Shown piece by piece: positions 9,741 to 59,775 of a DNA stretch of 64,000 bases. The stretch comes from Lysinibacillus sp. FJAT-14745 (lineage in GTDB: Bacteria; Bacillota; Bacilli; Bacillales_A; Planococcaceae): positions 220,319 through 284,318 of the forward strand of contig NZ_LITM01000009.1 in assembly GCF_001275675.1 (NCBI RefSeq). Direction: 5' to 3'. Under the pieces are notes generated by a model that made no database searches, was not told the origin of the DNA, and saw only the letters and a program-made list of their open reading frames with translations. How positions within the stretch are numbered: the stretch's first letter is position 1; each line of letters starts with the position of its first letter. The position numbers and the translations under genes are program-made.

Positions 9741-10118
9741 AAAAAAGTCCTCTGCAAAAAGGATTTTTCCTAAATGCAGAGGACGATCATGACCGCGTTG
9801 CCACCTCATATTAGAGCATATTTGCTCTCTCTTATGTGCTCAGCCTTAGTTCGACATTAAAACAGACATACGTTAACTAAAGTCAAAGCCCCCCCTATAA
9901 CGTGGGGAATCCGTTCGCTATTTTCATAAGCGACTCTCATAAGTCCATTCACATAAGCTACAAATCAGTTTGCACCATCCACTGACTCTCTAAATTGCAC
10001 ACTTATGCTACTACTCTTATTCAACAATTTCTCAGCTATTCTCATCTAAACTCAGCTCATCTGTTCTAAGGCTGACCTCGCTCCCGAGACCAACTACCTT
10101 GTATCGAACAAAAAAGTT
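9741..10118 (-). promoter_or_regulatory. T-box leader of the trp operon, tryptophan specifier
   Basis: On the minus strand the leader carries the antiterminator motif AGGTGGCAACGCG at 9805-9793. It has a stem I region with the conserved AGAGAG...GGTGCAAACTG text. The specifier context is GAATGGAC, with codon UGG at 9947-9945. A strong intrinsic terminator (GTCCTCTGCA/TGCAGAGGAC, 9784-9747, then six Ts) follows. In this class uncharged tRNA-Trp pairs with the leader and prevents termination, so trp is induced by tryptophan starvation. This differs from the TRAP attenuation of B. subtilis. Confidence 0.92.
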
Positions 10119-12117: not shown

Positions 12118-12281
12118 CAGGTGTGTCGATTAACCATTTTTATATATTCGAATTAATTCGAAGAGACTGATTTCCGCTACAGGCTACAATCAGTTAAAAT
12201 GGACATACATTTGAAAAATATCTGCAAAAAAATCCTTTTATCATTCAATAAAAACCTATATTTTCCTAATCAACACGCCTG
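12118..12281. mobile_element. Family B MITE-like element, short copy (164 bp)
   Basis: The ends are CAGGTGTGTCGATTA and, reading inward from the other side, CAGGCGTGTTGATTA, a 15-bp inverted repeat with two mismatches. Both end regions match the two ends of the 50-kb element for about 70-100 bp, in opposite orientation. The central ~200 bp of that copy is missing. It has no coding capacity. Target duplication is unclear because the flanks are T-rich. Confidence 0.8.
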
Positions 12282-36666: not shown

Positions 36667-39145
36667 GTAGGGTGAGAACCCAGCGCCTTGATATATTTCT
36701 ACATTAGGTTTCCAAGAACTCCCCTCCAAACCGTACGTACTCCTCTCAGAGTATACGGCTTTCCATTTACTTTAATCTAACTTGCCATTATGCAAATCGT
36801 GATGGCACGATATACATAAAGCCATTGTTTTTCGTCTACGGGCTATCATTTTCTGTTCCCATTTTTTCTTACCTTGTAAATTCTTCAATTTATGAATATG
36901 ATGCATTTCAAGTGATATACCTGATACTCCACACCATTCACATTTTTCGGCAAGTAATCGGTCAATCAGACTTGTTCGCCCTGTATAAATTAGTGTATTT
37001 TCAACTATATCAACTGTTGGCTGTTTAATCGCATCGTTCTTTTCCATTCGTTGCTCTGTAAAATAAGCAATTTTCGGACCTTCTTTTGTTTCATATCGAA
37101 TGCCAAATTCCCCGTTAATCTTATATTTAGTGATAATTTTGCTAACAGTACTCCTATATTTATTCGCATACGTTTTAATCATGCTGTATTTCATCGTTTG
37201 ACGGAAAGACTGTAAAACATGTACATTACTTGCTAGGCGATAGTAATTGTAATAGCCTTCTATTTCTGCATTGTACGTACGAATAATTTCAAGGTCGTCA
37301 TTATGCACTAAATATGGGCGATGAATAGGTTTCCAACCATTATTCGTTCCTATTTTTAACGCGTTTAATTGTAAGAGCTTTTGAATATATTTTTCATGTG
37401 GAACGAAAAGCTTTGTTTGATAGTTGAATTTACGCTTTTTAGTTCCGTTTGGCATTTTCATTCGTTGCCAATCTCTTACGACACGAATGTCATACCCAAG
37501 AAAACGGGCATTCTTCTTGCTATGAGTAATCAATGTTTTCTCAGCACTCAATTCTAGCCTTAACCGTTCTTTTAAGAACATTGCCAAGTCTTGTTTAATT
37601 TGTTCAGCTTCCTTTTTACTTCCAATGACGCCAAGTATAAAATCATCTGCATAACGAACATATTTTAGACGTCGGTAATTTGGGTCGAAAAGGCCTTTAC
37701 TATCATGGCTTTGTAATTCTTTATAAAGGATTTTTAGTTCCTTTAAGCGCTCTTTCTTTTCTTCTTCGGATAAGGTCGCCCAATCATGTTTATTCTTACT
37801 TTTGCGATGATTAATCTTAGAAGCAAGATTATGATATGTTAAATTGTGCATTCGTTTGTCACCTTTGTTATAGCTTTCAATATATTGCTCCACATATTTA
37901 TCGAGTTCATTTAAATAAATATTCGATAACAAGGGGCTGATGATTCCTCCCTGTGGTGCACCACTATAAGTTTTATGAAACTCCCAATCTTCTACATAAC
38001 CTGCTCGTAAAAATTTCCAGATTAAGTTGATGAATTTTTCATCATGAATCCGTCTTCTTAAAATGCTAATTAACACATGATGGTCTATATTATCGAAGAA
38101 CCCTTTAATATCACCCTCAATAAACCATCTAGTTCCCGTAAAAGTATTACGGATTTCTTTTAATGCTGTATGACAGCTCAGATTTGATCTAAATCCATGA
38201 GAGTGTACCGAAAACTGTGGCTCATAAATGCTTTCAAGTAATCGCCGAACAACTTCTTGGACTAGTTTATCCTCGAAAGTAGGGATGCCAAGTGGTCTTG
38301 TTTTCCCGTTCTTCTTTGGGATGTACGTCCGTCGTGCTGGATTTGGTTGATACGCTTGATTTTTTAATTTCTCAATGAGCTTTTCTATACGCTTTATGCT
38401 CATGCCATCAATTGTATCTTCATTGATTCCTTTTGTATTACTGCCCTTGTTTTTATACAGTTTTACGTAAGCTTCAAAATAGAATTCTTTGTTGTACAAG
38501 TTACGATATAGTCGTTCAAATACATAGCTTTCATCTTTTGCTTTGGCAGTTAGACGATTTAATACTACTTTTGGAATTCTCATAGAGCCTCCGCTCCTTC
38601 CCAATTTTGTATTAACAGTGTAAACTGCTCCCCTTCGCCATGTACTAGGCTTTCCCTAGCTCGGACTACTACGAGAGCTCCGTTACCATATCAGATATTC
38701 AGTATCTAAACACATAGCCCATAGGCATTCTGACTTAGGTAATCCCCATTTAGATTTATAAAGACTTATCGCATGTATAATGTCGGATATGACGTTCGCT
38801 CGTTACTTTTATATGAAAGTTGGGTGAAATGGTATCACATCATCATTCTCGAAATCTTTAAGAACAATGCACATTTCAAATAGCGTAAATCATGACCTCC
38901 CGCTAAAGGTCCCCGTAGTCCCCCTTGAGCTATCATTCAAGCAGTTTAGCCTTTATCCTTATTTATACAATTCATCTCGCCATTCAGTCGTACTTTGGTC
39001 ATTAAGTAACTTCTGGCTTTTCCAACATGCTACACTCCCTGATTAGTTTCCCTTTCAGATAAGTTGGCTAATGATAGGGTACAGATAGTGATATTTCCCT
39101 ACTGCTGTGCGAAAGCAGATTCCTTATAAACCCTTATGGGCGCAC
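36667..39145 (-). mobile_element. Group II intron inserted in radC (2479 bp)
   Basis: On the minus strand the element begins GTGCGCCC at 39145 and ends with CCCTAC at 36667, the GUGYG...AY pattern of group II introns. Domain V is recognisable as AGCCGTATACTC...GTACGTACGGTT around 36727-36761, with GGAGGGGAGTTC leading into domain VI. The 5' ribozyme domains I-III occupy about 38600-39145. An intact multidomain intron-encoded protein lies in domain IV. It has the same orientation as radC, so splicing could restore the message. Confidence 0.93.
36772..38583 (-). CDS. ltrA: Group II intron reverse transcriptase/maturase
   Basis: The 603-residue intron-encoded protein carries an RT domain with the catalytic Y-A-D-D in Y-V-R-Y-A-D-D-F-I-L near residue 315. 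A maturase (X) domain (about 390-500) follows. The C-terminal HNH endonuclease region has C-E-W-C-G, M-H-H-I-H and C-I-S-C-H-H-D-L-H near 550-600. All catalytic residues are present and the frame is open. The ATG at 38583 follows GGAGG by about 5 nt; an upstream in-frame ATG at 38604 overlaps that site. It promotes splicing and DNA retrohoming of its intron. Its symbol is used in the generic sense. Confidence 0.95.
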   Translation of the reverse strand: MRIPKVVLNRLTAKAKDESYVFERLYRNLYNKEFYFEAYVKLYKNKGSNTKGINEDTIDGMSIKRIEKLIEKLKNQAYQPNPARRTYIPKKNGKTRPLGIPTFEDKLVQEVVRRLLESIYEPQFSVHSHGFRSNLSCHTALKEIRNTFTGTRWFIEGDIKGFFDNIDHHVLISILRRRIHDEKFINLIWKFLRAGYVEDWEFHKTYSGAPQGGIISPLLSNIYLNELDKYVEQYIESYNKGDKRMHNLTYHNLASKINHRKSKNKHDWATLSEEEKKERLKELKILYKELQSHDSKGLFDPNYRRLKYVRYADDFILGVIGSKKEAEQIKQDLAMFLKERLRLELSAEKTLITHSKKNARFLGYDIRVVRDWQRMKMPNGTKKRKFNYQTKLFVPHEKYIQKLLQLNALKIGTNNGWKPIHRPYLVHNDDLEIIRTYNAEIEGYYNYYRLASNVHVLQSFRQTMKYSMIKTYANKYRSTVSKIITKYKINGEFGIRYETKEGPKIAYFTEQRMEKNDAIKQPTVDIVENTLIYTGRTSLIDRLLAEKCEWCGVSGISLEMHHIHKLKNLQGKKKWEQKMIARRRKTMALCISCHHDLHNGKLD

Positions 39146-47321: not shown

Positions 47322-47629
47322 TAAAAAAAACTCCTAACGTCTAAAAGGACGAAGGAGTTTAAGTTCGCGGTACCACCTTTAATTCCAGTAGAGGTAAGTT
47401 AAGCAGTCACACATTTCATTAGAAAAAAATGTACTACTTGCTTAAGCCTTTTACTACTGGCTCTCAATTCGGTAACGGTGTTTAACCGGCTTTAACTACT
47501 GTTAGTTCACTAAAGCTGCTCGAGGGCTACATTCAATTAGGTACAAATAGAAACTTTTCAGCTACCGTTTCCTCTCTTAAAATGTACTCATAATTTACTC
47601 TTCCCTGTCATAGCATCTATATTCGACTT
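47322..47629 (-). promoter_or_regulatory. T-box leader of valS, valine specifier
   Basis: On the minus strand the antiterminator motif AAGGTGGTACCGCG is at 47379-47366. The stem I region holds a G-A-A-T-G-T-A-G-C context with codon GUA at 47530-47528. A terminator (AAACTCCT...AGGAGTTT, 47360-47328) is followed by a run of Ts. Uncharged tRNA-Val is expected to allow readthrough into valS. The specifier assignment is by alignment with the trp leader and the downstream gene. Confidence 0.9.
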
Positions 47630-49453: not shown

Positions 49454-49900
49454 TTATACATTCACCAATTTAATTTTATTTGCTACACGATCTGTTAACA
49501 TTTGTGTTGCTTTTGGTACGATCGGCTTAAAGATTGGATTTAAAACAGGACCAGCTAATCCTCCTGCTGTTACTTCTAAGAAGCCTGTCATTTTTGTATT
49601 TTCTGCATCAATACTTTCTGCTAGGAAATAACCGTTTCCTGAAAAGTTGTCAGAAAGTCCTTTTAGTTCGAATGTTACTTTTGTAGGCGCTGCCCATTCT
49701 AAAATAGTAATTTCTACTTGTACTGTTTTTTTCAGAACACCAACATTGCCTTTAAACGTCCAATTTGAATGTTTTTCATCAATCATTTCATGTGCATTAT
49801 AACCTGGGACAAGCTTTGCCCATTTTTCCATATCACTAACGAAATCCCATACATTTTCAATTCCTACGGGTACTTCGACCATATGTGTGCCTGTTGCCAT
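49454..49900 (-). CDS. CoxG-like SRPBCC-domain protein
   Basis: The 148-residue protein has the SRPBCC pattern of carbon-monoxide-dehydrogenase subunit G proteins: V-P-V-G-I-E-N-V-W-D-F-V near residue 10, W-A-K-L-V-P-G near 28 and a final amphipathic helix. CoxG proteins recruit partner enzymes or bind small lipids. No CO dehydrogenase genes are nearby, so the role here is unknown. The ribosome binding site is weak. It is a lone gene next to the IS remnant. Confidence 0.75.
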   Translation of the reverse strand: MATGTHMVEVPVGIENVWDFVSDMEKWAKLVPGYNAHEMIDEKHSNWTFKGNVGVLKKTVQVEITILEWAAPTKVTFELKGLSDNFSGNGYFLAESIDAENTKMTGFLEVTAGGLAGPVLNPIFKPIVPKATQMLTDRVANKIKLVNV

Positions 49901-50337: not shown

Positions 50338-50346
50338 ATCTGGTAT

Positions 50347-50709
50347 CAGGCGTGTTGATTAGGAAAAAATAAGTTTATTATTGAGCGATAAAAGGATTTT
50401 TTCGTTACCACTTTGCCAATATATTTCCATTTTAACTGATTGTAGCGTAGGGCTACTCGACTCCCGCGGGAAAGCGATAGAGGAACGAAGGCTAAAACCA
50501 TCACATCCTGTGATAACGCCTTCGTGACCAACATCGTGTTGGCCCGAGACCCTGCACGGAGCGAAGCGGAGGAAGCGGAGGAAGCGGCTCGACGCTCGCC
50601 CGCAAAAAGCTCTGCTCTGCGCGAAAGCGAAGCGTCAGCGGCAAAGCGAGTAGCCCGTAGCGGAAATCAGCCTCTTTGGATGTATAAAAATGGTTAATCA
50701 ACACACCTG
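50347..50709. mobile_element. Family B MITE-like element, long copy (363 bp)
   Basis: The ends CAGGCGTGTTGATTA and CAGGTGTGTTGATTA are 15-bp inverted repeats with one mismatch. ATCTGGTAT is repeated exactly on both sides (50338-50346 and 50710-50718), a 9-bp target duplication. The interior holds GAGGAACGAAGGC...GATAACGCCTTCGTG and GCGCGAAAGCGAAGCG segments shared with the 59-kb family A element. There is no transposase frame, so mobilisation would need one elsewhere. Confidence 0.9.
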
Positions 50710-50965
50710 ATCTGGTATAAAACTATTAGAATAATATATAAAATCATCTCCCTCTATAGATTTCTTAGCTGAGAGGTATTTCCATACTAGATATTCATGT
50801 TAATATCGTAATAAAGATTGCAAAGAAATGTACTTAAACAAACGACGTATTTTAGTTTAGAACAATGTCTTAGCTTGTTGATCAATTAGAAAAAATTATG
50901 TAGTTTAAACCTCTACTCTACAAGTATTGAGGGGCAAAGCTGAATAGAGAGAAATGGAGGGGAAT

Positions 50966-51628
50966 ATGGTGAAAAAACAGCATTCAAACAAAAAGCTTAT
51001 TCTATTAGATCTGATTTTTTATGTAGCATTACCATATATTATATGGAATTTTGGTAGGGAACCTTTTGGTCATTACGTAGCAATGCTGATTTCAACTATT
51101 CCGGGAATTATTTATACCATTTACCGTTTTATTTTAGATAAGCAGTTTAACATAACAGGTTTATTTATTTTAGGCTCATTAGCACTCGGCACAACGGTGG
51201 ATCTCCTATCTGGGTCAGCAGAGCAAATGATTTGGAATGGTATATATTTAAGTCTTTTTTATTCATTTCTATATTTTGTTTCACTAGTGATTAAGCGTCC
51301 TTTTTCTTTATACTTTGCTGTTGATTTTGTATATTTACAAGGTTATGAACGAAAGGACAGTAGAGCATTATTTTATCAAAAAGGAATCTTTAAATGGTTT
51401 CAATTTATTCAAGTTATCTTTATTATCAGAGGACTTTTCATGGCAGGTTTAACTGTATTCCTGCTTAATAATTTTGGGATTGATGGCTATGGTGAAATGT
51501 TGATATATAAGCAAATCTCAGGTTGGATCTTCTCAGGTTTAATTATGGGGATGTTCTTTTATATAAATATCCCAGTACAAAAATTTTTTGCTAAGCAGCA
51601 AAAGCAATTACAAGACAAAAAAATATAG
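50966..51628 (+). CDS. VC0807-like integral membrane protein
   Basis: The 220-residue protein has about six hydrophobic segments. The spacing and the N-G-I-Y-L-S-L-F-Y-S motif resemble the VC0807 family of Bacillus membrane proteins of unknown function. ATG 50966 lies 5 nt after GGAGG; an ATG at 50954 is part of that site, and GTG at 50969 is another option. There are no close operon partners. Confidence 0.7.
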   Translation: MVKKQHSNKKLILLDLIFYVALPYIIWNFGREPFGHYVAMLISTIPGIIYTIYRFILDKQFNITGLFILGSLALGTTVDLLSGSAEQMIWNGIYLSLFYSFLYFVSLVIKRPFSLYFAVDFVYLQGYERKDSRALFYQKGIFKWFQFIQVIFIIRGLFMAGLTVFLLNNFGIDGYGEMLIYKQISGWIFSGLIMGMFFYINIPVQKFFAKQQKQLQDKKI

Positions 51629-59309: not shown

Positions 59310-59454
59310 AATTTGTGAACATGTCATGAAGAACTGAAATTCGTCATCTAAATTAGAATTATTATAAACTAAGTGTAACAAATTATACGTTCTGTTTCAA
59401 ATTTAATGTTTGTCCAGGACATTGTTTTAAAAGGACAGAATTAAATAGCTCTTA

Positions 59455-59690
59455 ACCAAAACGTGTGGTTGATTTCCGTTCCGGCTTGGCGCTTTGCCGC
59501 TGACGCTTCGCTTTCGCGCAGAGCAGAGCTTCCTGGGGGCGTCCGATGAGCCGCTTCGGCCTACACGATGTAGGTCACGAAGGCGTTATCACAGGACGTG
59601 ATGCTTTTAGCCTTCGTTCCTCTATTACTGATCCCCAAGGAGTCGCCAAGCCTCCACTACAATCAACTTATCCACATGACATACGTTTTA
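59455..59690. repeat. Family A long element with a module shared with family B
   Basis: GTGGTTGATTTCCGTTCCGGCTTGG opens it and CAATCAACTTATCCACATGACATACGTTTTAAAA closes it. Inside are CGCTTCGCTTTCGCGCAGAGCAGAGCT and CACGAAGGCGTTATCACAGGACGTGAT...TTTTAGCCTTCGTTCCTCTAT. These two segments occur in reverse complement inside the family B element at 50347-50709. It lies about 210 bp upstream of the hemA start. Confidence 0.85.
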
Positions 59691-59775
59691 AAAAGATCAT
59701 CCTAATAGAGTCGAACTAAATTTGAACGTCTCTATTATTAATTTGAACAGTTTAAATGAAATTTATTTTAAGATA

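Follow-up and report, generated by a model that had tools for sequence, protein, structure and literature searches.

The window, the whole 64,000-nt stretch of Lysinibacillus DNA that was analysed, contains a 363-bp non-autonomous element at 50347-50709, with neighbouring frames pointing away from it on both sides (49454-49900, minus strand, and 50954-51628, plus strand). Mechanically called ORFs that overlap the element have 62 and 67 aa and are candidate frames only. The features of the element, and the two related features elsewhere in the window, are as follows.

50338-50346, no strand: left copy of the target duplication, ATCTGGTAT, a perfect 9-bp direct repeat
50347-50361, plus strand: left terminal inverted repeat, 15 bp, CAGGCGTGTTGATTA
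50347-50709, plus strand: non-autonomous element, 363 bp
50436-50670, no strand: long internal hairpin, with outer arms at 50436-50459 and 50647-50670 (24 nt, 75% complementary)
50476-50542, minus strand (putative): Bacillaceae-1 RNA (RF01690); the Rfam match is on the plus strand and the wobble bias favours the minus strand as RNA
50500-50514, minus strand: inner hairpin of the RNA, loop ATCCT on plus and AGGAT on minus; ACAGGATGT resembles the CsrA site described in PMC4333381
50528-50542, minus strand: second hairpin of the RNA, loop ATCGT on plus and ACGAT on minus, no GGA loop here
50695-50709, minus strand: right terminal inverted repeat, 15 bp, CAGGTGTGTTGATTA, which reads TAATCAACACACCTG at 50695-50709 as the window shows
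50710-50718, no strand: right copy of the target duplication, ATCTGGTAT
12118-12281, minus strand: second occurrence of this MITE, shorter (164 bp) and decayed, one mismatch in one of its ends, duplication gone
59447-59710, minus strand (borders approximate, by eye): another Bacillaceae-1 carrier, of ISL3-like type, with the RNA at 59560-59626

The original prediction, a 363-bp element whose inverted ends are 15 bp long and whose 9-bp duplication is perfect, proved exact to the base (50347-50709; CAGGCGTGTTGATTA / TAATCAACACACCTG; ATCTGGTAT), and the element is short and non-coding with terminal inverted repeats and a target duplication, as is a MITE. The prediction had missed the RF01690 match at 50476-50542 and the second copy at 12118-12281; owing to the structured-RNA motif inside it, the element goes beyond a plain MITE. 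Allowing up to two mismatches, four places in the window match the end motif, against 0.29 expected, and none of 100 shuffles reached four. Folded as RNA, the element (50347-50709) beats 100 of 100 shuffles (z -5.4). Promoter-like and terminator-like sites around the element showed no excess over chance. The right flank of the element (50739-50857) is part of another dispersed repeat of about 120 bp, present at several places each in some congeners (e.g., G015) at about 75-80% identity.

Searched at the DNA level against its own genome (5.16 Mb, 29 contigs), the element gave 72 matches; allowing one mismatch, the end motif was found at 145 places, compared with 0 for a reversed-pattern control, and exact left ends at 65 places. 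From the fetched loci at least 66 elements of 164-586 bp could be paired, 54 of these 66 having a perfect 9-bp duplication, five a duplication with one mismatch and seven none recognisable, while swapping flanks between elements gave a 9-bp match in 2 of 4,290 pairs. The target duplications of the copies are 81% A+T, and CAGGCG is nearly always the left end and CAGGTG the right. Lengths are nominal for the 21 of 66 copies that have runs of N inside, leaving a gap-free set of 45. The commonest size class among these is 257 bp (15 copies, 13 distinct), with mean identity of 98.8% and a lowest value of 96.1%; it is the youngest-looking class, and its high identity points to a recent burst. A 1,145-bp end pair in one locus (L277) was rejected as spurious, having two mismatches and no duplication and overlapping a 256-bp element.

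The element was matched in 26 of 41 genomes, comprising 25/25 of the genus and 1/16 of the others, with many of the matches covering the interior only. Copies with clean borders in another genome, anticipated by the original prediction, were detected in G007, where the same ends and a perfect 9-bp duplication were present in 12 of 16 fetched loci (an 8-bp duplication in one further locus). Fourteen elements from other Bacillales genera have related ends and are flanked by a 9-bp duplication, but differ in their interiors; RF01690 is present in three of the 14, all three from Rummeliibacillus. The joined flanks of 11 of the 54 duplication-bearing sites were queried against 31 genomes, and single-target empty sites in congeners, with alignment running through the junction, were found at five (L135, L281, L009, L014, L015). 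L267 is a partial case, in which the alignment begins 25 bp to the left of the junction, with substitutions in the target, and at L010 the alignment diverges at the junction; the remaining four queried sites, including the window's own, had no clean spanning match in the 31 genomes. The expected single-target empty sites were thus borne out in congeners for five of the 11 queried sites and not for the window's own.

The multiple dispersed copies with clean empty sites (at least 66 copies; 5/11 sites) and the perfect duplications in 54 of 66 same-ended elements uphold the earlier claim of non-autonomous, MITE-like transposition. Segmental duplication or recombination as the main way in which the copies multiplied is extremely improbable: this reading has in its favour the 12 of 66 copies without a perfect duplication, but is largely refuted by the single-copy empty sites, together with the 54 9-bp duplications at different sites.

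The full-length transposon with like ends and a transposase, another expectation of the original prediction, was found as IS4-family insertion sequences with near-identical ends (13-15 of 15 bp alike) and 9-bp duplications, both in the same genome and in congeners; the IS transposase was matched in 11 of 25 genomes. The L. macroides locus L184 holds a 1,258-bp IS with ends CACGCGTGTTGATTA / CAGGCGTGTTGATTA and a 378-aa transposase that scores 212 bits with the NCBIfam IS4 family model (cut-off 115) and matches Pfam DDE_Tnp_1; this IS copy has no target duplication. This transposase (P0001) has D117-D182-E284 with spacers of 64 and 101 and Y(2)R(3)E(6)K in YKSRWAIESFFRWVK. Two relatives of the transposase, of 73% and 66% identity, are encoded in the genome of the window, where the IS L292, with CACACG/CACGCG as its ends, is flanked by the 9-bp duplication AATAAATAT but spans an assembly gap, and the IS L293 is cut by a contig end.

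In congeners, a perfect 9-bp duplication was detected for 5/5 fetched 1,258-bp IS copies of G007, for 2/3 of the 1,255-bp copies of G008 and for the 1,259-bp copy L306 of G005, which has one stop; L317 of G005 has no duplication. The duplication-bearing ISs of these three genomes and L292 have CA..GTGTTGATTA-type ends, and at position 3 of the ends the ISs usually have C where the MITE has G. A partner was additionally sought in 94 viral-contig stretches, which gave no convincing IS, only pairs with 3-4 mismatches and no 9-bp duplication; the useful end pairs in that scan came from Bacillales loci of genome contigs.

Table 1 of PMC2266710 gives the IS4Sa subgroup a length of 1,150-1,750, ends CA------T and a duplication of 8-10 bp, and the same source gives the IS4 family DDE spacers of 60-110 and 100-150 plus YREK. 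The partner ISs have DDE spacers, YREK, end pattern, length and duplication within these descriptions (PMC2266710), suggesting that by size, ends, duplication and motifs they fit IS4Sa. With 1,255-1,259 bp, ends of CA with T at position 9, a 9-bp duplication and YREK the partner ISs resemble the subgroup, whereas the MITE differs in being without transposase and having the ends alone in common. Since the terminal 15 bp are all that the MITE shares with the compared ISs, we infer its trans-mobilisation, and the action of an IS4-type transposase on the MITE ends, from this likeness.

With these ends, duplications, copy number and empty sites, and with ISs of near-identical ends in the same genome, the element is very probably a MITE cross-mobilised by an IS4-family (IS4Sa-type) transposase, with the Bacillaceae-1 RNA as a passenger. 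Acting in trans, an IS4-family transposase would recognise and bind the 15-bp ends CAGGYGTGTTGATTA and excise or copy the MITE, which would be joined to an AT-rich target with a 9-bp stagger, repair then producing the 9-bp duplication. The interior is a nested hairpin repeat with the Bacillaceae-1 RNA set in it in a minority of copies, the window's included, and the RNA would be a passenger spread by several mobile elements.

Movement by another transposase that uses similar ends by chance would accord with the scanned loci, where no IS has exactly CAGGCG/CAGGTG at both ends and the IS ends are mostly CACGCG/CACACG. However, the L. macroides IS L184, with an IS4-type transposase, pairs a CACGCG end with a CAGGCG end, L306 of G005 has CAGGTG at one end and the same transposase type as L184, and the duplication length is equal in the MITE and the IS4-type ISs, so that we regard this explanation as improbable.

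Among known systems, the MIC231 elements, mobile insertion cassettes of IS231, are close to the MITE: they are non-autonomous, have IS4-family ends and carry protein genes. Like them, the MITE is non-autonomous with the ends of an IS4-family IS; unlike them, it is far smaller and carries a structured-RNA motif. The bcr1 repeats of the Bacillus cereus group are, like the MITE, mobile, structured, non-coding and present in high copy number, but have other ends and another target duplication.

The 67-nt motif at 50476-50542 matches Rfam Bacillaceae-1 (RF01690) with 76 bits, above the gathering cut-off of 35, and a second match in the window lies at 59560-59626. RF01690 was found in 23 of 41 genomes, with at least 94 copies each in the genome of the window, G003, G015, G018 and G023, 82 in G005 and 75 in G007. 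Carriers of the RNA were classified by a structure-pattern scan of the fetched loci together with flank classification, which covered 60 loci of the own genome (not 61 rows, because L428 and L448 are one locus); the shares come from a biased sample, the loci having been fetched for a MITE match or a high Rfam score. Within that sample 13 of the 60 loci lie in the IS4-type MITE (type A), 35 are ISL3-type carriers (type B), 11 belong to a third repeat with borders AACTTCTTTCAGC ... CATAATTGAT (type D), and one, L411, is a composite (B+D).

Eighteen of the type B loci have ISL3-type ends and 17 have the core only, i.e., the same core with both ends not recognised. The loci L403-L408, L410, L413, L415-L419 and L422 combine ISL3-like ends TCATCACCAAAAGT... 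with the shared core, and the putative ISL3-type MITE has an 8-9 bp repeat in 5 of 15 located copies when borders are allowed to float. An ISL3 transposase locus of the same genome (L423) has ends GGCTCATCACCAAAAGTCGTGGGTGAC / GGCTCTTCACCATAACTTGTGGTTGATTTTC, resembling those of the ISL3-type MITE, and is flanked by AATTATAT (by eye). Two RNA units stand in tandem in the type B copies L407, L408 and L413.

A fourth carrier (type C) was detected in a congener: six of seven RNA copies of G005 lie between ends CATAGTGTTGAA / CATGTTGTTGAA, which are those of an element of 570-750 bp present in G001 and G005 (L340, L341, L342 and L333). In the four loci read, type C inserts next to transcription-terminator hairpins, and the insertion duplicates the hairpin in full, a targeting that we take to be like that of IS1182-type elements; the labels C and Crev overlap, as only two letters distinguish one end from the other, and no transposase was identified for type C in G001 and G005.

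Type D loci of the own genome (L409, L411, L412, L414, L420, L421) have hairpins near both ends, and type D is perhaps of IS200/IS605 type, a name that serves as a lead only. Y1_Tnp was matched at two places, one adjoining a 2.2-kb N run, with a type D copy about 1.2 kb off past another gene, and the other broken by a stop; the TnpA elements at these matches showed no type D-like ends. At locus L412 RNA units form a tandem array, their stems changed and their loops unchanged.

The RNA is absent from 32 of the 45 gap-free MITE copies, including the whole 257-bp class, and is not needed for the spread of the MITE. The same RNA in at least one other transposon-type element, the one with ISL3-type ends, suggests a passenger spread by several mobile elements. 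Alternatively, RF01690 may be an old chromosomal sRNA in or beside which mobile ends arose, the several carriers being chance nesting. RF01690 also occurs in B. subtilis (control search), with eight structures there according to PMC8208703, and the composite locus L411 would suit such an origin. Against this, every one of the 60 classified loci of the own genome falls within a recurrent element, compared with a full label other than A at 1 of 600 random foreign places, and we consider the old sRNA unlikely.

The remaining control labels are in line with how the places were chosen: label A appeared at seven of the 600 foreign places, since these loci had been selected by the type A end motif, and a full label at 10 of 156 own-genome places, eight of which were labelled B, as ISL3 copies are among the control loci. 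In further genomes, 5 of 32 RNA rows were labelled 'none' and nine had half labels, a share of the copies thus fitting no label.

The structure of the passenger was analysed in 94 distinct copies (120 rows), which come from the genus and from a small number of further genomes, after removal of one false match in a window ORF. The stems vary on both sides and the loops stay RTCCT and ATCNT; pair 12-48 is GC in 66, TA in 24 and AT in three copies, and pair 25-39 is AT in 61, GC in 24 and TA in eight. In the Rfam orientation, the non-Watson-Crick pairs over the 94 copies are 13 A.C against one G.U (21:6 and 14:3 in looser sets), or eight against one as distinct states, with a binomial p of 0.0018 if independent, which the copies are not. 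This A.C excess favours the strand opposite to Rfam's as the RNA, in a count that ignores relatedness.

That Bacillaceae-1 is no RNA at all but a DNA hairpin which the elements retain, perhaps for its role at replication forks or in transposition, is possible although somewhat unlikely: the motif sits in long palindromic repeats, no promoter was found around the window's element and many MITE copies are without Bacillaceae-1, whereas the conserved loops, the stems that change on both sides and the strand bias of 13 to 1 among non-Watson-Crick pairs speak against it.

The published descriptions of Bacillaceae-1 treat it either as an RNA whose function is unknown or as one predicted to bind CsrA (PMC2864571; PMC4333381). 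In PMC4333381, Gardner and Eldai (2014) report CsrA-motif matches on the reverse complement of Bacillaceae-1, whose discoverers were unsure of the strand. On that opposite strand the inner hairpin reads ACAGGAYGT in 86 of 94 copies, and the second hairpin has ACAGGATGT, with a GGA loop, in a minority of 16 of 94. These loops hint that the passenger RNA, if made from the strand opposite to Rfam's, may present GGA-loop hairpins that CsrA could bind. The csrA gene is present in 36 of 41 genomes (23/23 with RF01690 and 13/18 without), and none of the five genomes without csrA holds RF01690, a co-occurrence that is weakly compatible with a CsrA link and is tied to kinship.

By itself the MITE is a fresh example of a familiar class, and its addition is a carrier for an orphan Rfam family, of whose at least 94 genomic copies all 60 that were classified sit within mobile or repeated elements, and these belong to more than one type. 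A wider, doubtful reading is that Bacillaceae-1 is a CsrA-binding module taken up by several unrelated non-autonomous elements (IS4-type, ISL3-type, terminator-targeting and hairpin-ended) and carried in dozens to about 100 copies in one genome, which could make a distributed CsrA sponge or rewire CsrA control beside the insertion sites. If unrelated transposons did pick up the same RNA, this would suggest that the RNA is of use to the element or to its host, the 2014 prediction on CsrA would be directly testable, and sRNA counts for Bacillaceae-1 would be counts of transposable elements, a warning for their use.

The published accounts found, in the excerpts available, do not describe this RNA as transposable-element cargo. 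A search of the literature open without subscription on Bacillaceae-1/RF01690, on Lysinibacillus MITEs and on MITEs with CsrA, structured RNA or IS4 gave no report of the MITE or of the RNA as transposon cargo, and the part of PMC4383904 consulted mentions MITEs only as a confounder for eukaryotic miRNA.

Elsewhere in the window, a group II intron match (RF00029) lies at 36667-36763 on the minus strand, and T-box leaders lie on the same strand at 9776-10033 and 47342-47620, the latter upstream of a frame reading like valyl-tRNA synthetase.
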